Origin: Pararcticibacter amylolyticus
GTDB lineage: Bacteria; Bacteroidota; Bacteroidia; Sphingobacteriales; Sphingobacteriaceae
Direction of reading: 5' to 3'
Length of the DNA: 39,277 nt
NCBI RefSeq assembly: GCF_003130405.1
Contig: NZ_QEAS01000009.1
Location: 99,272-138,548 of the forward strand
Under the pieces are notes generated by a model. It ran no database searches and had not been told where the DNA came from. It saw only the letters and a list, made by a program, of their open reading frames with translations. The first letter of the stretch is position 1. Each line of letters starts with the position of its first letter. Below, one piece after another: positions 4,254-14,175 of this stretch. Position numbers and translations under genes: made by a program.

Positions 4254-4388
4254 TTATACTATCTGCCGGCGTTCCGGAGTGTCGATTGCTTCTTCCGGGG
4301 CCGCTCTTCTTTTACTAACAGAGGCAATTGCTGATATTAAAACAGAACAGATTATAGATGGAATCCGATCCTCTCTCACGAAAACCAT
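4254..4388 (-). CDS. Possible small membrane protein or gene remnant (44 aa)
   Basis: An ATG overlaps the end of the YciI-like gene by 13 bases in another frame and opens a 44-residue frame. It has a hydrophobic stretch (IPSIICSVLISAIASV, residues 9-24) followed by a basic stop-transfer-like KRR and a charged tail ending PERRQIV. This is the layout of a single-pass small membrane protein, or of the last helix and tail of a truncated transporter. Overlap with the upstream stop suggests translational coupling if it is real. No family is recognised, and a chance frame is quite possible. Confidence 0.3.
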   Translation of the reverse strand: MVFVREDRIPSIICSVLISAIASVSKRRAAPEEAIDTPERRQIV

Positions 4389-4657
4389 ACTGGTTCCCGG
4401 AAGGAGACTGTATTAATTACATTTAGCATTCCGGCTTTAACCGCAGGATCGTCTCTGATAATTCTCCTGAAGTCTTCATCTGAACATACAGCCAGAACAA
4501 GAAATAGTCCCGGATTGCCTGATATTTGACTATAGAACATTGTTTGATTAGGCTTTCCAATCTGTTCATAGTATTTCCTATGATCGGGGAAATGCTCAAA
4601 AGAGAGTGTTTTATCAGCAGATCTCTGCATCCAGACTGCAACATAATGAGGTAGCAT
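4376..4657 (-). CDS. YciI-like (YCII-related domain) small protein
   Basis: A 93-residue protein with the YCII-related fold pattern: an N-terminal strand (MLPHYVAVWM), a central strand (GLFLVLAVCSDEDFRRII) and the typical ending DDPAVKAGMLNVINTVSFREP, which resembles the DP-x-V-x-A-G-L segment of YciI proteins. These small cytoplasmic proteins are ferredoxin-like; some carry a His-Asp pair, but no enzymatic role can be assigned here. It lies 96 bases downstream of the hxlR gene on the same strand and may be cotranscribed. Short inverted repeats in the gap (GACAT-CCCT-ATGTC at 4707-4720 and ATTGT-TT-ACAAT near 4680) could instead mark its own promoter. Confidence 0.7.
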   Translation of the reverse strand: MLPHYVAVWMQRSADKTLSFEHFPDHRKYYEQIGKPNQTMFYSQISGNPGLFLVLAVCSDEDFRRIIRDDPAVKAGMLNVINTVSFREPVWFS

Positions 4658-4753: not shown

Positions 4754-5167
4754 TTATTCTTTTATATGCTGAGTATAGAGCTTCTCTCTTATTTTTTCCA
4801 GCCCCGTCATCTTATTTTCTTTAACTCCTCCCAGAATAATCTCTTTTCCAGGATTCAAATCATCTGAAGCATACTTATCAGACCACAACCCGACCTCTAT
4901 GATAACCGGAAGAAGATCTATCCCTTTCTCTGTCAGGCTGTAAATGATCTTCTGTTTGTGTTTCCCGTCTTTTTGCTTGGTAATAAACCTTTCTCTTTCA
5001 AGCATCGCTAGCCTGTCAGCCAGGATGTTTGTAGATATCCCCTCCTTCGACATCAAAAATTCATTATAATATCTTTTGTTGAAAAACATCATGTCGCGAA
5101 TAATCAGAAGAGTCCATTTATCGCCAAATATTTCCAGTCCAAAATTAAGGGGACAATCCGACCTCAT
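4754..5167 (-). CDS. HxlR-family winged-helix transcriptional regulator
   Basis: A 137-residue DNA-binding regulator. The whole chain matches HxlR: MRSDCPLNFGLEIFGDKWT at the start, then LLIIRDMMFF, the recognition region EGISTNILADRLAMLE, and the wing KQKIIYSLTEKGIDLLPVI. Cys5 occupies the position of the redox-sensing cysteine found in several HxlR regulators (HypR, YodB). That similarity hints at thiol or electrophile sensing, but this is inference. The frame is open to a GTG at 5173; the ATG at 5167 gives the family-typical N-terminus. Its promoter faces the fabF promoter and the two share TTGCAA-containing elements, so it probably represses both itself and fabF. Confidence 0.88.
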   Translation of the reverse strand: MRSDCPLNFGLEIFGDKWTLLIIRDMMFFNKRYYNEFLMSKEGISTNILADRLAMLERERFITKQKDGKHKQKIIYSLTEKGIDLLPVIIEVGLWSDKYASDDLNPGKEIILGGVKENKMTGLEKIREKLYTQHIKE

Positions 5168-5186
5168 ATACACTTCAATAAACCAC

Positions 5187-5218
5187 TTGCAAAAATAAAT
5201 TAGTTTTCCCTATATTTG
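5187..5218 (+). promoter_or_regulatory. fabF promoter (TTG-N21-TATATTTG)
   Basis: TTG at 5187-5189 and TATATTTG at 5211-5218 match the Bacteroidota -33/-7 consensus. Initiation is expected near 5225, giving a leader of about 23 bases before the ATG at 5248. Confidence 0.75.
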
Positions 5219-5221
5219 CAA
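5190..5221 (-). promoter_or_regulatory. hxlR promoter (TTG-N21-TATTTTTG)
   Basis: On the minus strand, TTG (5221-5219) and TATTTTTG (5197-5190) have the same 21-base spacing as the opposing fabF promoter. Initiation is expected near 5183, about 16 bases ahead of the ATG at 5167, which supports that start. Confidence 0.7.
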
Positions 5222-5247
5222 CCACTTGCAAAAAAAAAGCAGTTAAT

Positions 5248-6489
5248 ATGAAACGAGTAGTCGTAACAGGTATGGGAGCAGTCACCCCTATAGGGAATGA
5301 TGTTCCAGCTTTTTGGAATAATCTCGTAACAGGTAAAAGCGGGGCCGCCAGGATCACTAAGTTTGATCCATCAGCATTCAGAACGCAAATCGCATGCGAG
5401 CTTAAAGGCTTCAATCCCCTTGAATATCTGGACCGCAGTGAGATTAAACGCACAGATCCATTTACTCAGTACGCCCTGGCTGCAGCCGCTCAGGCAGTAA
5501 GGGATTCCGGGCTTGATTTTAAAGCGATGAATCCCTATGATACAGGCGTCATTTGGGGCTCGGGACAGGGAGGTATGCTTACATTTGAAGAGCAGGTTAT
5601 GAATTATGCTTCTGATATGTCAAGGCCAGGATTCAGTCCGTTTTTTGTCCCAAAGCTCATTGCTAATATGGCTTCAGGAATGATAGCCATAAAATATGGT
5701 CTTAAAGGCATAAATTACACTACAGTGTCCGCTTGCTCAACCTCCAATACGGCTATCATGGATGCTCTCAATTACATCAGATGGGGAAAAGCAAAAGTAA
5801 TCCTGACAGGAGGATCCGAAGCTCCGGTAACAGCGGCATCTGTTGGGGGTTTTTCGGCAATGAAAGCGATGACAGTACAAAATCATCAGCCGGAGAGAGC
5901 CTGCAGGCCCTTTGATTCTGCAAGAGACGGATTTTTAATGGGTGAAGGATCGGGCGCTCTGGTTCTGGAAGAATATGAACATGCTGTGGCAAGAAATGCC
6001 CCGATATATGCGGAGGTTGCCGGTGCTGCGATGACTGCAGATGCCTACCATATGACAGCAACTCATCCGGAGGGAGAAGGTGCTTATATGGCAATGAAAT
6101 TTGCCCTTGAAGATGCAGGCTTGCTGCCCGACGATGTAGACTACTTAAACGCTCATGCAACCTCTACTCCTGTAGGGGACATAAGTGAGTTGAAGGCAAT
6201 AGCAAAGTTGTTCGGGGGAAAGAAGAAACGCCTGAAAGTCAGTGCTACCAAATCAATGACGGGGCATTTGCTGGGAGCAGCGGGGGCCATTGAAGCAATT
6301 GCCTGTATACTGGCTATCAGGAACTCTGTCATTCCTCCTACCATAAACCTTTTAAATCCGGATTCCGCCATTCCTGAGCAGATTGATATTATAAAACAGA
6401 ATGCATTGGAAACAACAGTGGATGTAGCAATGAGCAACACATTTGGATTTGGCGGACATAATGGAATTGTTGTTTTCAGAAAAGTTTAA
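5248..6489 (+). CDS. fabF: Beta-ketoacyl-ACP synthase II (FabF type), regulator-linked copy
   Basis: Condenses malonyl-ACP with acyl-ACP in fatty acid elongation (cytoplasmic FAS II). At 413 aa it has the usual KAS II length. The Cys-His-His active site is complete: Cys163 (TVSACSTSN), His303 (NAHATSTPVGD) and His340 (SATKSMTGHLLGAAG), with the C-terminal NTFGFGGHNG loop at 398-406. It is not beside acpP, fabD or fabG, as a housekeeping fabF often is, but alone behind an HxlR-controlled divergent promoter. It may therefore be a second, inducible ketosynthase that adjusts lipid composition, or one for a specialised acyl product. Whether the genome holds another fabF cannot be seen here. A separate promoter-terminator unit lies 43 bases downstream. 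Confidence 0.93.
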   Translation: MKRVVVTGMGAVTPIGNDVPAFWNNLVTGKSGAARITKFDPSAFRTQIACELKGFNPLEYLDRSEIKRTDPFTQYALAAAAQAVRDSGLDFKAMNPYDTGVIWGSGQGGMLTFEEQVMNYASDMSRPGFSPFFVPKLIANMASGMIAIKYGLKGINYTTVSACSTSNTAIMDALNYIRWGKAKVILTGGSEAPVTAASVGGFSAMKAMTVQNHQPERACRPFDSARDGFLMGEGSGALVLEEYEHAVARNAPIYAEVAGAAMTADAYHMTATHPEGEGAYMAMKFALEDAGLLPDDVDYLNAHATSTPVGDISELKAIAKLFGGKKKRLKVSATKSMTGHLLGAAGAIEAIACILAIRNSVIPPTINLLNPDSAIPEQIDIIKQNALETTVDVAMSNTFGFGGHNGIVVFRKV

Positions 6490-6863: not shown

Positions 6864-7892
6864 CTATGGCCAAATAGTGCTAAAACTTGCACCATTGAGA
6901 TTCAAAAACTGTCTGATGTTTTTTGGTGAAGTAGAAAACTGTTTCTGCATAACCCTGCTGAAATAATTTTGATCTGGATATCCAGCCAGCCTGCTCACTT
7001 CGCCAATTGAAAGTTTGGTTTCTCTGAGAAGTTTTAACGCACTTTCGAGTTTACATTTCTCTATATACTCCTGAACTGTAAGCCCGGTTTCACTCTTAAA
7101 GATTCTGGTCAAAGTACGACGGGCAAAAAAGAATCTGTCTGCAATTTGCTGGATATCTCCTATTTTCAGATCCCTTGAATTCTCTTCTATGTATTGCTGA
7201 ACTATCCTTATTCGTTCCTTCTGCGCATCAGAGCGAACAAATGCACCGCTAACAATCATATCGTTATAAAGCCTCAATAGCTGTACAACCTGATTCAAAA
7301 CATGTACTTCAACATCCTCCCCCCGCGTCTTTTTTAAATTAAAAAGACTAAGTATCAATCGCAAAGCTTTATTATCAATCTGACAACGGGGCATGTAGCC
7401 ATATTCTACCTCATTATCTCTAAAGGTCTTAATGGACTTTTCAATCGCCGAAAACTCAGATGACTTTCTTTCCAGCCATTCAAGACGGGGGGAAATGTAA
7501 CAAAAACGGTGGGTTCCCGGAGAAATGTTATTTATAAAAGTACTGCCTTTTTCTTTATAATTTGCGTACCATATACTTTTATTAGCTTTTGCTATATCCG
7601 AGCCGTCAGGAGCGGACGCAGAAATATCCCCATCGAACATAAAAAAGAGGTAGAATGAGGATTCATTTACAACATACGCAGTTTTGATTTCTTTCTCCAC
7701 ATGAAGCTCGTAAATTTCAATAAAGAAGAGGTAATTACTATAGCGTTGGATCAGCATCCTTCCCCCTTCTATATGCATTTCCCGAGCGTCCGCATAAGGG
7801 AATCGGATACTGCAATATGCTGGTAACCTACCGGTCACATTGGCCTCGGATAGCACCTTAGGAAAAATGGTAGCCTGAATTGAAGGTCTCAT
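6864..7892 (-). CDS. AraC-family transcriptional regulator
   Basis: A 342-residue regulator. The C-terminal 100 residues (about 228-330) form the double helix-turn-helix DNA-binding domain: IGDIQQIADRFFFARRTLTRIFKSE for the first HTH, then GEVSRLAGYPDQNYFSRVMQKQFSTSPKNIRQ for the second, with the AraC signature. The N-terminal 220 residues are a sensor region without a recognised ligand motif; the FYLFFMFDGDISAS segment is cupin-like. It lies downstream of the efflux operon on the same strand, 300 bases after the outer membrane factor gene. A long inverted repeat sits 27 bases upstream of its ATG and could be its own control site. Its target genes are unknown; the efflux operon is a candidate only by proximity. 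Confidence 0.88.
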   Translation of the reverse strand: MRPSIQATIFPKVLSEANVTGRLPAYCSIRFPYADAREMHIEGGRMLIQRYSNYLFFIEIYELHVEKEIKTAYVVNESSFYLFFMFDGDISASAPDGSDIAKANKSIWYANYKEKGSTFINNISPGTHRFCYISPRLEWLERKSSEFSAIEKSIKTFRDNEVEYGYMPRCQIDNKALRLILSLFNLKKTRGEDVEVHVLNQVVQLLRLYNDMIVSGAFVRSDAQKERIRIVQQYIEENSRDLKIGDIQQIADRFFFARRTLTRIFKSETGLTVQEYIEKCKLESALKLLRETKLSIGEVSRLAGYPDQNYFSRVMQKQFSTSPKNIRQFLNLNGASFSTIWP

Positions 7893-8192
7893 TACAAGTA
7901 TAAAACTTGAAAACTCAAGGCGATATTAGCCATTTGAATTGAATAAGACAAGTATTTCTTCTCAAATAGCTGATATCGCCCCGAATTAAAGATAAAGCAG
8001 ATCAAACACAATCCCGATAAACAGGATGCGTCACAGGCATAATTGCAGAACAGTATCCACTGTAAAGCTTGATTCTCCTGATACATCTTCAGTTGAATCT
8101 TTTTCTTTCTCACTGCCGCTGGTAGCGAAAAAGCCTAGATAATAATCATAGATCAGTCCCATAATTTATTTTTAATTTTTAACACACCTCAT
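7893..8192. other. Intergenic region between efflux operon and araC-type gene
   Basis: Holds a 62-base inverted repeat (7919-7980). A minus-strand frame (7892-8113) spans that repeat, ends exactly at the regulator's start and has no protein-like features, so it is not called. No other element was recognised. Confidence 0.45.
7919..7980. repeat. Long inverted repeat, 19-bp arms
   Basis: Arm GGCGATATTAGCCATTTGA (7919-7937) pairs with TCAAATAGCTGATATCGCC (7962-7980) at 17 of 19 positions; of the other two, one can form a G-U pair on each strand. The 24-base spacer is AT-rich. It lies in the leader or promoter of the AraC-type gene (27 bases before its ATG) and 212 bases beyond the stop of the efflux operon, so it could be an operator, a leader hairpin or a terminator. 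Confidence 0.8.
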
Positions 8193-9605
8193 TTATTGCC
8201 ATCCACCACCTACTGAACGATACAATTCAACTACCGCGCCAAGTTGTTTACGCTTTATCTCGGCCAGTTCAAGTTCACTCTGCAATACATTGCCCTGAGC
8301 TGTTATAATCTCCAGATAATTAGCCATTCCCGTATTAAAGAGCATTTGTGCGTTGCTTATTGCCTTTTGCAAAGTCTCAGTCCTTTGTCTGGCTATAAGC
8401 TCTTCCTGCTTGTATTTTTCGAAACTAACCAGTGCATCCTCTACTTCGGCAACAGCCTGAAGAACAGACTCCCTGAATTCAATGACAGATTTATCGCGCT
8501 CTATCCTGGCAAGTTCATATCTCGTTTTCAATTGTCTTCTCTGAAAAACCGGCTGGGTTAAACTTCCTGCAGCGGCTCCAAACAAAGAAGCCGGAATTGA
8601 AAACCAATTGCTTGCCTGAAAAGAATTCAACCCTCCCTGTGCAGATATCCTCAATGAGGGATACATAGATGCTATTGAGAACGAAACCTCCGCATTGTTT
8701 CGCCGGACGTCAAGTTCAGCTTGCCTCACATCTGGCCGGTGGGCAACTATAGAGGCAGGCACCCCTGCAGAAAGTTCCCCGGGCGTCGCTATTTTCTCAA
8801 GATTACTCTTAAGAACAGGCAAGCCAGGCAATCTGCCTGTCAACACACTGAGGGCATTTTCCTGGATAACAATGCTTCGTTCAAAAGACGGTATTAACTT
8901 CGCAGCTACCAGTCGCTGAGCTTCTGCCTGCTGCACAGCCAATTGAGTGACTTGCCCGGCTTGAAACTGAAGCTTGATAATATTCAGCACGCTGTCATTC
9001 AGCACCAGGTTTCTTCGCGCAATGAAAAGCTGTTTATCCAGCATTAACAGATTATAATATCCCTGCGAAACATTACTTACTATTTGCGTTTGAACGGCTT
9101 TTCTGGCTTCTTCTGTCTGCAGATAAGATGCAAGCGCCGCCGCTTTCTGACTTCTTATTTTTCCCCAAATATCAGCCTCCCAGGAAAGGTCGGCAGATGC
9201 CAAATAATCCTCGATATGACTGCTTCCTAAAAATTGATTGGCACTTAAACCGTTGATACTATTATCCGAAGGCCTGTTTGTAGTAGCAGTTACTCTAAGG
9301 CTTACTTCCGGCAGGTTACCAAGCTTTGCCTGGTTGAGAACTTTTCTGGATGCTTCCAGATTTTTAACGGCAATCTGAAGATTATTGTTCCGTGCAATAG
9401 CCGAATCTATTAACAGTTTCAAACGCTCATCAGAGAAGAAACTTGTATAGGGAATAGTAGCTATCCCGGCAGTATCTGCGTTTAAGGCATTCGCAAAGCT
9501 TGATGGAAGTCCCATGTCTGGTGCCGGAACATCTTTCGATAAGTGGCAGGCAGGCAGTATAGCTACCAGAATAATAAAAAGAAGTAATCTGATATATGTT
9601 TTCAT
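8193..9605 (-). CDS. RND efflux outer membrane factor, NodT/OprM type lipoprotein
   Basis: The trimeric outer membrane channel of the tripartite efflux pump encoded by the three genes here. The N-terminus MKTYIRLLLFIILVAILPAC is a lipoprotein signal with the lipid-anchored Cys20. The body contains the two OEP repeats: VKNLEASRKVLNQAKLGNLP near 80-100 and ELDVRRNNAEVSFSIASMYPSL near 300. It also has the typical DLSWEADIWGKIRSQKAAA segment and the ending KRKQLGAVVELYRSVGGGW. Length 470 aa is normal for the family. It is the last gene of the efflux operon, 61 bases behind the pump gene. Confidence 0.93.
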   Translation of the reverse strand: MKTYIRLLLFIILVAILPACHLSKDVPAPDMGLPSSFANALNADTAGIATIPYTSFFSDERLKLLIDSAIARNNNLQIAVKNLEASRKVLNQAKLGNLPEVSLRVTATTNRPSDNSINGLSANQFLGSSHIEDYLASADLSWEADIWGKIRSQKAAALASYLQTEEARKAVQTQIVSNVSQGYYNLLMLDKQLFIARRNLVLNDSVLNIIKLQFQAGQVTQLAVQQAEAQRLVAAKLIPSFERSIVIQENALSVLTGRLPGLPVLKSNLEKIATPGELSAGVPASIVAHRPDVRQAELDVRRNNAEVSFSIASMYPSLRISAQGGLNSFQASNWFSIPASLFGAAAGSLTQPVFQRRQLKTRYELARIERDKSVIEFRESVLQAVAEVEDALVSFEKYKQEELIARQRTETLQKAISNAQMLFNTGMANYLEIITAQGNVLQSELELAEIKRKQLGAVVELYRSVGGGWQ

Positions 9606-9666
9606 TATTTCTTATTTTATAAAAAAGACATGAAGGATACCCCGGACAGATATCCCTTTCATGTCA

Positions 9667-12600
9667 TTAGCTTAAGATGGATTGAGGGGAATGTGTTGCA
9701 ATATGATCCCTGTTGACATGGCCATCGGAGTGTACGGCATCCAAAGACTTCCCAGAAACCCTTTCCTGAAGATACTGGAATACTACATAAAGCACCGGAA
9801 TAACGAAAAGTCCCAGCACTACCCCTGCCAGCATGCCTCCTGCGGCTCCGATACTGATTGAATGATTTCCCTGGGCTGAAGGCCCCTGTGCATACATCAT
9901 TGGAATTAACCCAACAACAAACGCAAGGGAAGTCATAATGATCGGCCTGAGTCTTAATTTTGCTGCCTCAAGAGCTGAGGCCAGGATAGTCTGTCCATTT
10001 CTCCGTCTTTGTACAGCAAATTCAACTATTAGAATAGCATTCTTTGCAAGCAGTCCTATAAGCATAACAAGCGCTACCTGTACATAGATATTATTTTCAA
10101 TTCCAGTTAGGCCTATCGCTGCAAATACTCCAAATACTCCTGTAGGAATTGATAAAATAACAGCCAACGGTAGAATATAACTCTCATATTGGGCTGCCAG
10201 AAGGAAGTAGACAAATATCAGACAAAGAACGAAGATAATTGCCGACTGACCTCCGGAAGAAATTTCCTCCCTCGTCATACCGGAAAATTCATAAGAGTAT
10301 CCTGTTGGCAAGCTCTGTTTCGCAACGGCTTCGACAGCTTTTATCGCATCTCCCGAGCTGAAGCCGGGCTTTGGTATTGCGTTAATACCAATTGAATTAA
10401 ATAAGTTATATCGGGATGCTGTCTCCGGCCCATAAACCCTTTTTAATTTTACCAGCGTATTGAGAGGAACCATATCCCCTTCCCTGTTTTTGACATAAAC
10501 TCCGTCCATCGACGACGGTTCGTTCCGGTTTGCCTTATCAGCCTGAACCACTACCCGGTAATATTTCCCGAAACGGTTGAAATCAGAAGCCTGAGCACTG
10601 CCAAAGTATGCCTGCATAGTTTGGAGGACATCTTTTGTACGGACACCGAGCTGCTCTGCTTTTACTTCATCCACTTCCATTTCATATTGAGGATAATCGG
10701 CTTTAAAAGTGGTGAATGCTACCGCAATTTCCTGTCGCTTCATTAATTCGCCAATAAAATTGTTGCCCACTTCGCTGAACTTATTTAATGCCCCTCCCGA
10801 ACGATCCTGCAACACCATATCCAGTCCGTCAACATTACTGAATCCCGGTACCGTAGGAAACGTAAATACAAAGAAATCTGCACCTTTTATGCTTCCTAAT
10901 TTCTCCCTTACAACATTCATAATCTGGTTTATGTCTTTCACATCACCCCTCTCTTCATATGGCTTGAGGAGAATAAAAGCAACACCAGCAGAAGGACTCG
11001 TAGCAGAGGTAAGAATATTGAAACCGGAGATGACATTTAGAGTCTTATTGAAAGAAGCGGGCTGCAGGAGCGTTTCTGCTTCGTGGAGAGCGGCGTTCGT
11101 ACGCTCAAGAGACGCACCTGCCGGCATAGACAGGGAAACAGCGATAAAACCCTGATCCTCCGACGGAATAAATCCGGAAGGTGTTCTTTTTATCATAAGT
11201 CCTGTAACAACTACTATAATTCCCAATCCGGCGAGGCTTGCCCATTTATATTTAGTCAGGAAACGCAGGGATCCGACGTAGCGGTTGGTCATTCTGTTAA
11301 AAGTTGTATTGAAGCCAATAAAGAACCGTTCTTTAAAGCTGCTCTTTCTGTTATCATCCTTCTGATAAGAATGCGTTTCCTTTAAAAATAAAGCACAGAG
11401 TGCCGGACTCAACGTAAGGGCATTGACTGCAGAGATCACAATCGCAATAGCAAGTGTAAACGCAAACTGGCGATAGAAAACTCCTGTTGAACCCTCCATA
11501 AAGCCAATGGGCAGGAACACTGCAGACATTACCAGTGTAATTGATATAATAGCACCTGTGATGTCGTGCATTGCAGAAATAGTCGCCGCTTTCGGTGCAA
11601 GATGATTATGCTCCATTTTTGCGTGTACAGCTTCCACTACCACAATCGCATCGTCCACTACAATCCCTATCGCGAGTACGAGTGCAAAAAGTGTAAGCAG
11701 GTTAATGGAAAACCCGAACAGCTGCATAAAAAAGAACGTTCCTACAATTGCAACTGGTACCGCTATTGCTGGAATGAGGGTGGACCGGAAATCCTGCAGG
11801 AAAACAAATACAACAAGGAACACTAAAATGAAGGCTTCCACTAACGTATGTTTCACCTGATCTATAGATTGATCCAATGCTACTTTGGTGCTGTAAAGCG
11901 TCAGATATTTCATTCCCTTGGGAAAATCCTCCTGAGCTTTATCCATCATCTTTGTAATAGCCTCCTGAATCTCATTAGCATTAGAACCTGCCAATTGCAA
12001 TACGCCTATATTTAATCCGGCCTTACCGTTAATCCGCGTATTGCTGGCATAGGTGTAAGATCCGAATTCTACTCTTGCAACATCCTTAAGACGCAATACT
12101 GATCCGTCTGCATTAGAACGTATAATAATATTTTCATAATCGGATGGCTGATTTAGCTTTCCCTTATACTTAATAACGAACTCAAACGCCTCAGTACTGC
12201 TTTCCCCGAATTTTCCGGGTGCCGCCTCCAGGTTTTTATCCTGAATTGCTGCTGTTACTTCCTGAGGAGTCAGCTTATAAGCAGTCATTTGATTGGGGTT
12301 TAGCCAGATACGCATGGAATAGTCCTTGCTCCCACCAAATAAAAGAGCTTGACCAACACCCGGAATACGTTTGATTTCCGGTATCAGGTTGATCTGGGCA
12401 TAATTCGCCATGAAGGTTTGATCATAGGTCTTCTCATCTTCGCTATAAAGATCCACTACCATGATCAGACTGTTCTGCTGCTTGGTCGTTGTAATTCCTG
12501 CCTGTATTACCTCAGCAGGCAACTGACTTGTCGCCTGAGATACCCGGTTCTGCACGTTAACTGCGGCCTGGTCAGGATCTGTACCAAGCTTAAAGTAAAC

Positions 12601-12873
12601 CGTGATAGCAAGAGATCCATCGTTGCTGGCGGTGGAACTCATATAAGTCATGTTCTCTACTCCATTTATCGACTCTTCAAGTGAAGGGGCTACTGAGCGC
12701 AAAATTGTTTCAGCGCTTGCACCCGGATAAAATGCTGTTACCTGAACTGCCGGTGGGGCGATATCCGGGAATTGCTGTAAAGGCAATTTGGTTATCCCAA
12801 TAATACCCGCAATAACCAGGAGTATTGAGATCACTGTGGCCAGAACCGGCCTTTCTATAAATTTCCTGAACAT
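9667..12873 (-). CDS. RND multidrug efflux pump, AcrB/MexB type (HAE-1)
   Basis: Inner membrane proton-driven transporter of the tripartite pump, exporting amphiphilic drugs or toxic compounds. At 1068 aa with the two-fold RND layout (six-helix halves around 340-540 and 870-1040, large periplasmic loops between), it is full length. The proton-relay aspartates fall at 407 and 408 (AIGIVVDDAIVV), the same numbers as in AcrB. The TM10 lysine is in LLAKNAILIVEFA, and the FRKFIERPV start is typical of HAE-1 pumps. The gene begins 10 bases after the adaptor stop, so they are cotranscribed. Substrate cannot be predicted from sequence. Confidence 0.95.
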   Translation of the reverse strand: MFRKFIERPVLATVISILLVIAGIIGITKLPLQQFPDIAPPAVQVTAFYPGASAETILRSVAPSLEESINGVENMTYMSSTASNDGSLAITVYFKLGTDPDQAAVNVQNRVSQATSQLPAEVIQAGITTTKQQNSLIMVVDLYSEDEKTYDQTFMANYAQINLIPEIKRIPGVGQALLFGGSKDYSMRIWLNPNQMTAYKLTPQEVTAAIQDKNLEAAPGKFGESSTEAFEFVIKYKGKLNQPSDYENIIIRSNADGSVLRLKDVARVEFGSYTYASNTRINGKAGLNIGVLQLAGSNANEIQEAITKMMDKAQEDFPKGMKYLTLYSTKVALDQSIDQVKHTLVEAFILVFLVVFVFLQDFRSTLIPAIAVPVAIVGTFFFMQLFGFSINLLTLFALVLAIGIVVDDAIVVVEAVHAKMEHNHLAPKAATISAMHDITGAIISITLVMSAVFLPIGFMEGSTGVFYRQFAFTLAIAIVISAVNALTLSPALCALFLKETHSYQKDDNRKSSFKERFFIGFNTTFNRMTNRYVGSLRFLTKYKWASLAGLGIIVVVTGLMIKRTPSGFIPSEDQGFIAVSLSMPAGASLERTNAALHEAETLLQPASFNKTLNVISGFNILTSATSPSAGVAFILLKPYEERGDVKDINQIMNVVREKLGSIKGADFFVFTFPTVPGFSNVDGLDMVLQDRSGGALNKFSEVGNNFIGELMKRQEIAVAFTTFKADYPQYEMEVDEVKAEQLGVRTKDVLQTMQAYFGSAQASDFNRFGKYYRVVVQADKANRNEPSSMDGVYVKNREGDMVPLNTLVKLKRVYGPETASRYNLFNSIGINAIPKPGFSSGDAIKAVEAVAKQSLPTGYSYEFSGMTREEISSGGQSAIIFVLCLIFVYFLLAAQYESYILPLAVILSIPTGVFGVFAAIGLTGIENNIYVQVALVMLIGLLAKNAILIVEFAVQRRRNGQTILASALEAAKLRLRPIIMTSLAFVVGLIPMMYAQGPSAQGNHSISIGAAGGMLAGVVLGLFVIPVLYVVFQYLQERVSGKSLDAVHSDGHVNRDHIATHSPQSILS

Positions 12874-12883
12874 AATCTTCTAT

Positions 12884-14023
12884 TTAATTGAGTGCTGTAA
12901 GTTTGCGGTCTTCCGGTTTCAAAGGTTCCGGCTTTATTACCTGGTCTTCCTGAAGATGTTCAATTCCTTTGTAAACAATTTTATCTCCCGATTTCAGGCC
13001 CTCGCTGATAATGTAGTTTGGACCACTTTTACCAATTACGGAGATCGGCTTTTTATTTACCTTATTGCTGTCACCCAAAGCGTAAACAAAAATCTTGTCC
13101 TGTATTTCGATCGTTGCAGATTGAGGGACAATTAGTGCATTACTATGCTGCAAAGCTAACTTTACCCGTCCGGTATTTCCAGCACGCAGTAACCCCTCTT
13201 TATTAGGAAAACTTGCCCGCAGGGTGATTGCGCCTGTATTTTTATCAAATTGACCATCAACCATATCTACCTTCCCTTCAAATGGGTAAGTACTTTGGTC
13301 GGATAAAATCAGACTAACTGGCGGCATGTTGTTTAACTTCTGTTTTAAAGTAGCACCGGGGTATTGTGCCTTGAACGTAACAAAGTCACTTTCGCCGATA
13401 GAAAAGTATGCGTGCATTTCGTGTACATCGGATAGTTGTGTAAGCGGTTGCATATCGGAAGGACTAAGTAAACTTCCCTGCTTTTTTTGTAAGCGGCCTA
13501 TATAACCACTCACCGGAGCTGTAATAACTGTATATCCCAGATTTATCTTCGCAGCAGCAACGTTTGCTTTCGCCTGTTCTAGATTTCCTAAAGCCACGCG
13601 GTAAGCCGCACGGGCGGATTTAATCTGAAAATCTGATACGACATGGTTCTCTACTAGTGGCTTTAGTTTTTCTACCTCCAGTTGTGCGTTCTCTACTGCC
13701 CCCTCTGCCGCATTGAGACTAGCTCTGGAAGCATTCAACTGCTCCCGATACGGCCTGTCATTTATTTTAAAGAGAGCCTGCCCCTTTTGAACGAATGCAC
13801 CCTCATCCACTAAAACCTGATCAAGGATACCCTCAACCTGCGGACGGATCTCTATATTAACAATTCCATCAATAGAGGCTGGATACTCCTGATAAGTCAC
13901 TTCCGAACCCTGCTTAATTTCCCACACAGGTAAAGACGGCGGAGGAGCTGCGCCCATTTGAGCATTTTGATCAGAGGAACACCCGAATAAAAATAACACC
14001 ATGACAAAAATGGCGGCCTTCAT
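12884..14023 (-). CDS. RND efflux periplasmic adaptor (membrane fusion lipoprotein)
   Basis: Links the AcrB-type pump to the outer membrane channel. From the ATG at 14023 the product begins MKAAIFVMVLFLFGC, a compact lipoprotein signal with Cys15. The AcrA-like layout follows: biotinyl-lipoyl hairpin halves (IRPQVEGILDQVLVDEGAFVQKG and INLGYTVITAPVSGYIGRL), a coiled-coil hairpin between them (SLNAAEGAVENAQLEVEKLK), and beta-barrel and membrane-proximal domains (AGNTGRVKLAL, QDKIFVYALGD). The frame stays open to an ATG at 14101, which would add 26 residues before the signal; that form is too long for a lipoprotein signal and would put an operator copy inside the gene. First gene of the efflux operon. 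Confidence 0.93.
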   Translation of the reverse strand: MKAAIFVMVLFLFGCSSDQNAQMGAAPPPSLPVWEIKQGSEVTYQEYPASIDGIVNIEIRPQVEGILDQVLVDEGAFVQKGQALFKINDRPYREQLNASRASLNAAEGAVENAQLEVEKLKPLVENHVVSDFQIKSARAAYRVALGNLEQAKANVAAAKINLGYTVITAPVSGYIGRLQKKQGSLLSPSDMQPLTQLSDVHEMHAYFSIGESDFVTFKAQYPGATLKQKLNNMPPVSLILSDQSTYPFEGKVDMVDGQFDKNTGAITLRASFPNKEGLLRAGNTGRVKLALQHSNALIVPQSATIEIQDKIFVYALGDSNKVNKKPISVIGKSGPNYIISEGLKSGDKIVYKGIEHLQEDQVIKPEPLKPEDRKLTALN

Positions 14024-14038
14024 AACATCATTAAAGTG

Positions 14039-14053
14039 TTTAACAGCGTTAGA
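14039..14053. promoter_or_regulatory. TetR operator copy 3 (adaptor-proximal)
   Basis: TTTAACAGCGTTAGA differs from the operator at 14176-14190 at two positions. It ends 16 bases from the adaptor ATG at 14023, where bound repressor would obstruct transcription or an initiating polymerase. Confidence 0.6.
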
Positions 14054-14175
14054 TAGTGTAGGGTAGGATTGCAGATAGACATAAAATCGATGCGTTTTCA
14101 TTTTCTATTATGTAATTGTGGTAAGAATATTTAATGAATGTGAGCTCTCCCTATCGGAGAAATTTTAAAGGACAG

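Follow-up and report, generated by a model that had tools for sequence, protein, structure and literature searches.

How expression is controlled where two genes share one short stretch of upstream DNA is the question raised by this region of Pararcticibacter amylolyticus (“the window” denotes the whole 39,277 nucleotides analyzed), in which hxlR on the minus strand and a fabF gene on the plus strand diverge from an 80-bp intergenic region. A first-pass annotation had described this region as a pair of face-to-face, bistable-looking promoters built on two TTGCAA elements, all of whose boxes a single regulator would cover. Here, we combined promoter prediction, shuffle controls, and comparison of related loci to arrive at a model of how the two genes may be regulated.

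The product of hxlR carries the winged-helix domain of HxlR/DUF24 regulators, with a Pfam score above the cut-off (Table 1). Its start codon is most likely the ATG at 5167 (protein beginning MRSDCP), since 24 of 25 aligned hxlR-fabF pairs, window included, have ATG at this codon, L024 with AGG being the sole exception; the GTG at 5173 was set aside in favor of this conserved codon. The fabF gene starts at ATG 5248, and its product scores as a FabF equivalog (Table 1) and contains C163, H303, and H340, which we take to be the catalytic Cys-His-His residues of FabF. The genome holds two fabF copies over the family cut-off. The second (housekeeping) FabF is 53% identical to the accessory FabF studied here and has an ACP-like motif within 500 bp upstream, as judged by a simple motif test. 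At least two fabF genes over the cut-off were found in each of the 16 pair-bearing genomes checked. Elsewhere in the window, a 93-aa ORF downstream of hxlR (4376-4657, minus strand) has no Pfam or NCBIfam match, and the minus-strand region 6864-14101 contains an AraC-type regulator followed by ORFs of 470, 1068, and 405 aa which, judged by eye, resemble an RND efflux operon in size.

Table 1. Features of the hxlR-fabF region, in window coordinates; promoters and starts are predicted
Feature	Position	Strand	Detail
hxlR (HxlR/DUF24 winged-helix regulator, 137 aa)	4754-5167	-	Pfam HxlR PF01638, 61.5 bits (cut-off 20.8)
O_H, operator-like dyad CCACTTGCAAAAATAAATTAG	5183-5203		Overlaps hxlR -7/+1 and fabF -33
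fabF promoter	5187-5218	+	TTG 5187-5189, N21, TATATTTG 5211-5218; predicted start ~5223
hxlR promoter	5190-5221	-	TTG 5221-5219, N21, TATTTTTG 5197-5190; predicted start ~5185
Perfect inverted repeat TTTGCAA-CCAC-TTGCAAA, TTTGCAACCACTTGCAAA	5215-5232		Perfect in 1 of 26 pairs, the window alone
O_F, operator-like dyad CCACTTGCAAAAAAAAAGCAG	5222-5242		Spans predicted fabF -1 to +20
Accessory fabF (beta-ketoacyl-ACP synthase II)	5248-6489	+	TIGR03150, 572 bits (cut-off 493.75)

Both strands of the intergenic region carry the elements of a Bacteroidota sigma-A promoter, a TAnnTTTG -7 box with an upstream TTG, in the form TTG-N21-TAnnTTTG, and the two predicted promoters share the same DNA; on these points, the first-pass annotation was right. 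No other N21 promoter of this form occurs in the whole 39-kb window, which has one on each strand. In 5000 dinucleotide shuffles of the 80-bp intergenic region, opposed N21 promoters on both strands never appeared, and one N21 promoter on either strand appeared in 0.96%. With TAnnTTTG set at -12 to -5 (PMC9723704), we predict starts near 5223 on the plus strand and near 5185 on the minus strand. RNAs from these starts would diverge without overlapping. Consequently, the predicted hxlR and fabF promoters are overlapping and divergent, an arrangement that differs from what “face-to-face” promoters usually means, and we do not retain that part of the annotation.

Relatives of this locus were collected in several ways. 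A search for related loci gave 36: a divergent fabF accompanies the nearest 13 (L017-L029), and no such gene was present in the DNA examined for the remaining 23. At E <= 1e-40, scans turned up hxlR in 7 of the 399 genomes from the window's family and in 17 of the 394 from that of Chitinophaga skermanii; a class-wide sample of 395 genomes contained it in 8 at E <= 1e-35 (the first and last counts include the window's own genome). In the five other genomes of the window's genus, an orthologue of hxlR is absent; the HxlR matches there are 23-38% identical, or 59% identical over 32 residues, with E of 2e-6 or weaker. The hxlR-fabF pair is sparse yet spread across two families of Bacteroidota; Mucilaginibacter arboris and Pedobacter nutrimenti are among its bearers. 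Removing duplicates (L076, L078, L081, L121-L123, L125, L128, L129, and L134-L136) left 25 pairs, window included, to which L156, found through its fabF, was added as the 26th; with an hxlR that is partly N, L156 is counted among the 26 and not among the 25. Because related sequences are not independent, all such counts overstate the number of evolutionary events.

Across the 25 pairs, the -7 box is present in all at hxlR and in 24 at fabF. The fabF -33 TTG occurs in 23 (N21 in 18, N22 in 5), and the hxlR -33 TTG in 9 (N21 in 8, N23 in 1); in L156, the promoter spacing is N19 by eye. HxlR and FabF distances correlate over 24 pairs, with L019 dropped and L156 not included (r = 0.76; 0 of 2000 permutations). 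A conserved operon extending beyond hxlR-fabF was not found, as no other ORF family is common to more than 4 of 14 loci (ORFs inside fabF aside, and with some flanks short).

What these relatives conserve is a dyad of 17-21 bp, about CYACTT-N9-AAGTRG, usually present in two copies 38-41 bp apart (start to start). The annotation had expected its elements to be kept in relatives that retain the gene pair. They are, with at least one dyad at all 26 hxlR-fabF pairs, although the unit kept is this dyad; TTGCAA as the conserved unit is ruled out, because CTTG-N7-CAAG dyads persist in relatives while their inner bases drift. In the window, the two dyads O_H and O_F have one degenerate half each (4 of 8 symmetric positions) and form the sole dyad pair (at least 8 of 10 positions, 30-45 bp apart) in the whole stretch. 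Relative to the predicted starts, O_H lies at -40 to -20 of fabF and at -18 to +3 of hxlR. Compared with CCACTTG-N7-CAAGTGG, O_H matches at least 10 of 14 positions in 22 of 25 pairs, and O_F matches at least 9 of 14, at 38-41 bp from O_H, in 21 of 25. O_F is missing or strongly changed in L019, L024, L029, and L133, and O_H in L028, L079, and L126. When 10 of the 26 pairs are aligned, most invariant columns belong to the CTTGCAAA-ATA block, to the TAT-TTTG box, or to the AAG in O_F's right half.

The perfect inverted repeat singled out by the annotation is real in the window, where the fabF -7 box (TATATTTGCAA) continues into the left half of O_F to form it, and allowing up to 2 mismatches yields no second match anywhere in the 6.3-Mb genome. 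Taken alone, the repeat is weak evidence, since 13.5% of shuffles contain a perfect 7-bp inverted repeat of some kind (spacer up to 10), and we reject it as an operator because it is perfect in one pair of 26. One could go further and regard all repeats in this region as chance features of AT-rich promoter DNA, given this figure and the 5.6% of window intergenic shuffles that contain a single dyad of 8. However, a spaced dyad pair occurs in only 0.08% of the 5000 shuffles, and both conservation and co-occurrence with hxlR extend over 26 pairs, which makes chance a hardly credible explanation.

Whether the dyad belongs to the regulator or to fabF can be judged from loci in which the two genes are separated. 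Of the 26 pairs with hxlR, 25 have a dyad within 130 bp of fabF that agrees with the core at 8 or more of 10 positions (21 of 26 at a threshold of at least 9); in the 26th, L021, the gap is 398 bp and both dyads lie beside hxlR. The five fabF genes nearest the window's among 369 genomes scanned are 77-80% identical to it, and only that of L156 faces hxlR, with dyads. The other four (L154, L155, L157, and L158) have no hxlR within 1.5 kb on either side of fabF, and none has a dyad of 8/10; in L155 and L157, TTG-N21-TATATTTG is kept and the dyad is absent. For fabF genes without hxlR in a sister clade, a dyad of 8 was found in 4 of 18 and none at 9. Housekeeping fabF genes gave 0 of 17, a weak control because their 130 bp follow an ACP-like gene and are possibly promoterless (L107 and L108, which are the fabF genes of pairs L029 and L028, were dropped from this set).

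The dyad also accompanies HxlR proteins much further away. The 29 distinct loci of distant HxlR relatives (41-64% identity) include 25 with a dyad of at least 8 in the ~150 bp upstream, 22 with one of at least 9, and 19 with two or more dyads; they derive from 32 loci, with positions taken from the alignment, of which L084, L085, and L088 repeat L031, L034, and L036. No dyad of 8 was found at L046, L047, L048, and L087, and L040, L043, and L044 reach 8 at most, a value equalled by 4.5-12.5% of shuffles of their own upstream DNA. The loci in which the dyad was counted also supplied its consensus, in part the distant ones as well; the outside tests are the hxlR-less, sister-clade, and housekeeping loci, with n = 4 for the close hxlR-less relatives. 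Given its presence at 26/26 hxlR pairs and 25/29 distant HxlR loci, versus 0/4 close fabF relatives lacking hxlR, the dyad, as far as co-occurrence in sequence tells, goes with the regulator and not with the fabF gene.

Within the genome itself, spaced dyad pairs are confined to three loci, those of the window hxlR and of the two HxlR paralogues closest to it; among the remaining 12 HxlR matches, three have one dyad of 8 and nine have none. The two closest paralogues, L059 (=L013, C45) and L064 (=L015, C127), are 50% and 44% identical to the window HxlR and have paired dyads of the same type, the former facing a short-chain dehydrogenase and the latter an ORF without a Pfam match. Pfam matches for 20 of the 25 genes facing distant HxlR comprise four SRPBCC (Polyketide_cyc2), two SDR, two GST, two DUF1330, and two SnoaL proteins, together with one glyoxalase, thioesterase-like, GNAT, GFA, zinc dehydrogenase, and cytochrome P460 protein each, and two without a family. 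An ACTTG-N7-CAAGT dyad also stands beside seven HxlR relatives (L030, L039, L041, L049, L050, L051, and L052) from KSB1, Omnitrophota, Chamaesiphon, Obscuribacterales, Gammaproteobacteria, and Robiginitomaculum, with varying facing genes. A wider regulon defined by the pattern TANNTTTGCAAGTNG was not upheld: the pattern gave 15 matches spread over 11 of 13 genomes, with 10 of the matches at hxlR-fabF (in the window's own genome one, at this site), versus 29 for its reversed control, a result that reflects the rarity of such sites and is not a regulon screen.

We propose, with a probability of about 0.8, that HxlR is an autorepressor that turns off its own gene and the accessory fabF together through the two dyads. 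The intergenic region would then be the control region of a two-gene divergon, with an HxlR dimer on each of two dyads ~39 bp apart. The first dyad would lie over the hxlR -7 and fabF -33 boxes and the second over the fabF start, so that bound HxlR would block both promoters and thereby repress hxlR and the accessory FabF gene, until an inducer, probably Cys5-reactive, frees the DNA from HxlR and permits a self-limiting burst of fabF expression. The genes, the promoter-like boxes, and the dyads, together with their conservation and their association with hxlR, can be read directly from sequence; binding, repression, the inducer, and the role of the extra FabF we infer. The positions of O_H and O_F, over promoter boxes and predicted start regions, suit repression. 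The annotation's idea of one regulator covering all four boxes survives for both -7 boxes or start regions and for the fabF -33 box, and lapses for the hxlR -33 box, whose TTG is found in 9 of 25 pairs.

Two other modes of action have to be weighed against this. HxlR could activate fabF and repress hxlR alone; the founding HxlR of B. subtilis is an activator of its targets (PMC7835342), and we count this against the repressor model. However, the sites are unfriendly to an activator, with O_F at -1 to +20 of the predicted fabF start and O_H over the fabF -33 box, and both boxes of the fabF promoter are present in most pairs; we therefore consider activation improbable. A bistable switch, as the annotation implied, would arise if polymerases excluded each other at the overlapping promoters and so maintained two stable states. 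The hxlR and fabF promoters do overlap in sequence, but that overlap is not strictly kept, given how few pairs have the hxlR -33 TTG. Moreover, the gene pair encodes only a single regulator, which is predicted to act on both promoters, and negative feedback is what a lone repressor of hxlR and fabF would be expected to produce. A bistable switch is thus more improbable still, and negative feedback takes its place in our description.

Autoregulated divergent regulator-enzyme pairs such as TetR-type divergons have one regulator, shared operators, and both promoters covered. The autorepressor arrangement proposed here is like them in all three respects and unlike them in that its promoters are of the Bacteroidota -33/-7 type and one of its dyads encloses a -7 box. 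On sequence grounds, it looks like a standard repressor switch placed on an unusual target gene.

As for the signal, Cys5 is the single cysteine of the window HxlR and the only cysteine that is invariant (25 of 25 pairs). An N-terminal cysteine is also present in all 32 distant loci (29 distinct) and, at the equivalent position, in 7 of 8 alignable other HxlR paralogues of the same genome. We infer that Cys5 may serve as the sensor. YodB, CatR, and QsrR use an N-terminal cysteine at the Cys5 position (PMC8063818 and PMC6798810), and the YodB operator is given as TACT-N7-AGTA (PMC8063818), with the same half-site spacing as here. The window system resembles the MarR/DUF24 thiol repressors of Bacillus and Staphylococcus in family, in its N-terminal cysteine, and in half-sites 7 bp apart. 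It differs from them in its half-site (ACTTG/CAAGT), in having paired dyads over two divergent promoters, and in facing fabF, whereas their facing gene is a quinone reductase or dioxygenase. In addition, it has no second conserved cysteine equivalent to Cys101 of YodB; no cysteine other than Cys5 is conserved in the 25 HxlR proteins, which does not fit a YodB-type two-cysteine switch. With the formaldehyde-responsive activator HxlR of B. subtilis, the window protein shares the HxlR domain and the conserved N-terminal cysteine, whereas the operator positions here suggest repression. The Cys-X-Lys pair crosslinked by formaldehyde in that protein is Cys11/Lys13 (PMC7835342); here, the lysine is replaced by leucine (C-P-L in 25/25), and we reject formaldehyde sensing given the absence of Cys-X-Lys.

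The accessory FabFs form a clade separate from the housekeeping clade (support 100/100). Since the hxlR-less copies and the sister clade of 18 nest among the hxlR-linked FabFs (the sister clade joins on a weakly supported branch, 84/72), linkage to hxlR may be ancestral and later lost or swapped. At acyl-pocket position 107 (window numbering), all 48 accessory FabFs have Q, N, or E, versus I or V in all 17 housekeeping FabFs, and the solved FabF chain 3o04_A has Ile at the equivalent position. We take position 107 to be I108 of B. subtilis FabF, in which the change I108F leads to cerulenin resistance (PMC3996569).

Residue 107 and the I108F change motivate, without establishing, a special case of the repressor model that also names the signal and the purpose: a compound able to alkylate the housekeeping FabF at its active-site cysteine would also alkylate Cys5 of HxlR, thereby releasing a less sensitive accessory FabF with an altered acyl pocket. 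The sole invariant cysteine at the YodB/CatR/QsrR position is consistent with this idea, as are the polar residue at the presumed I108 position and, among the 20 facing genes scanned at distant HxlR loci, the two GSTs, glyoxalase, GFA-family protein, two SDRs, and zinc dehydrogenase. However, an N-terminal cysteine is general in the HxlR family, as the paralogues indicate, which makes it unspecific as evidence. FabF clades that lack hxlR have the polar residue in equal measure, and this residue could equally set chain length or substrate. We regard such a bypass as speculative and rather unlikely.

In the sister clade (L165-L182), a palindrome, ATACC-N4-GGTAT, lies within 130 bp upstream of fabF in 16 of 18 loci, and it was found in 0/26 hxlR pairs, 0/4 hxlR-less relatives, and 0/17 housekeeping fabF genes. 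By eye, a TetR-like ORF lies near the sister-clade fabF in L174, L176, and L179. As a tentative extension of the electrophile-responsive bypass, this sister clade of the accessory FabFs appears to have swapped HxlR for other, perhaps TetR-type, control.

In the open-licence literature, which omits most subscription papers, we found no description of the HxlR-fabF pair, and nothing on HxlR operators in Bacteroidetes or on HxlR with ketoacyl enzymes in Bacteroid taxa. What began as a vague repeat is now a concrete predicted operator for a subfamily of HxlR regulators that occurs in several phyla, and the analysis also draws attention to a group of regulated spare FabFs in Bacteroidota. If the sister-clade swap is true, regulator-controlled spare FabFs would be a repeated theme in this phylum, and if the bypass is true, these bacteria would possess an inducible FabF with lower sensitivity to inhibitors of FabF.
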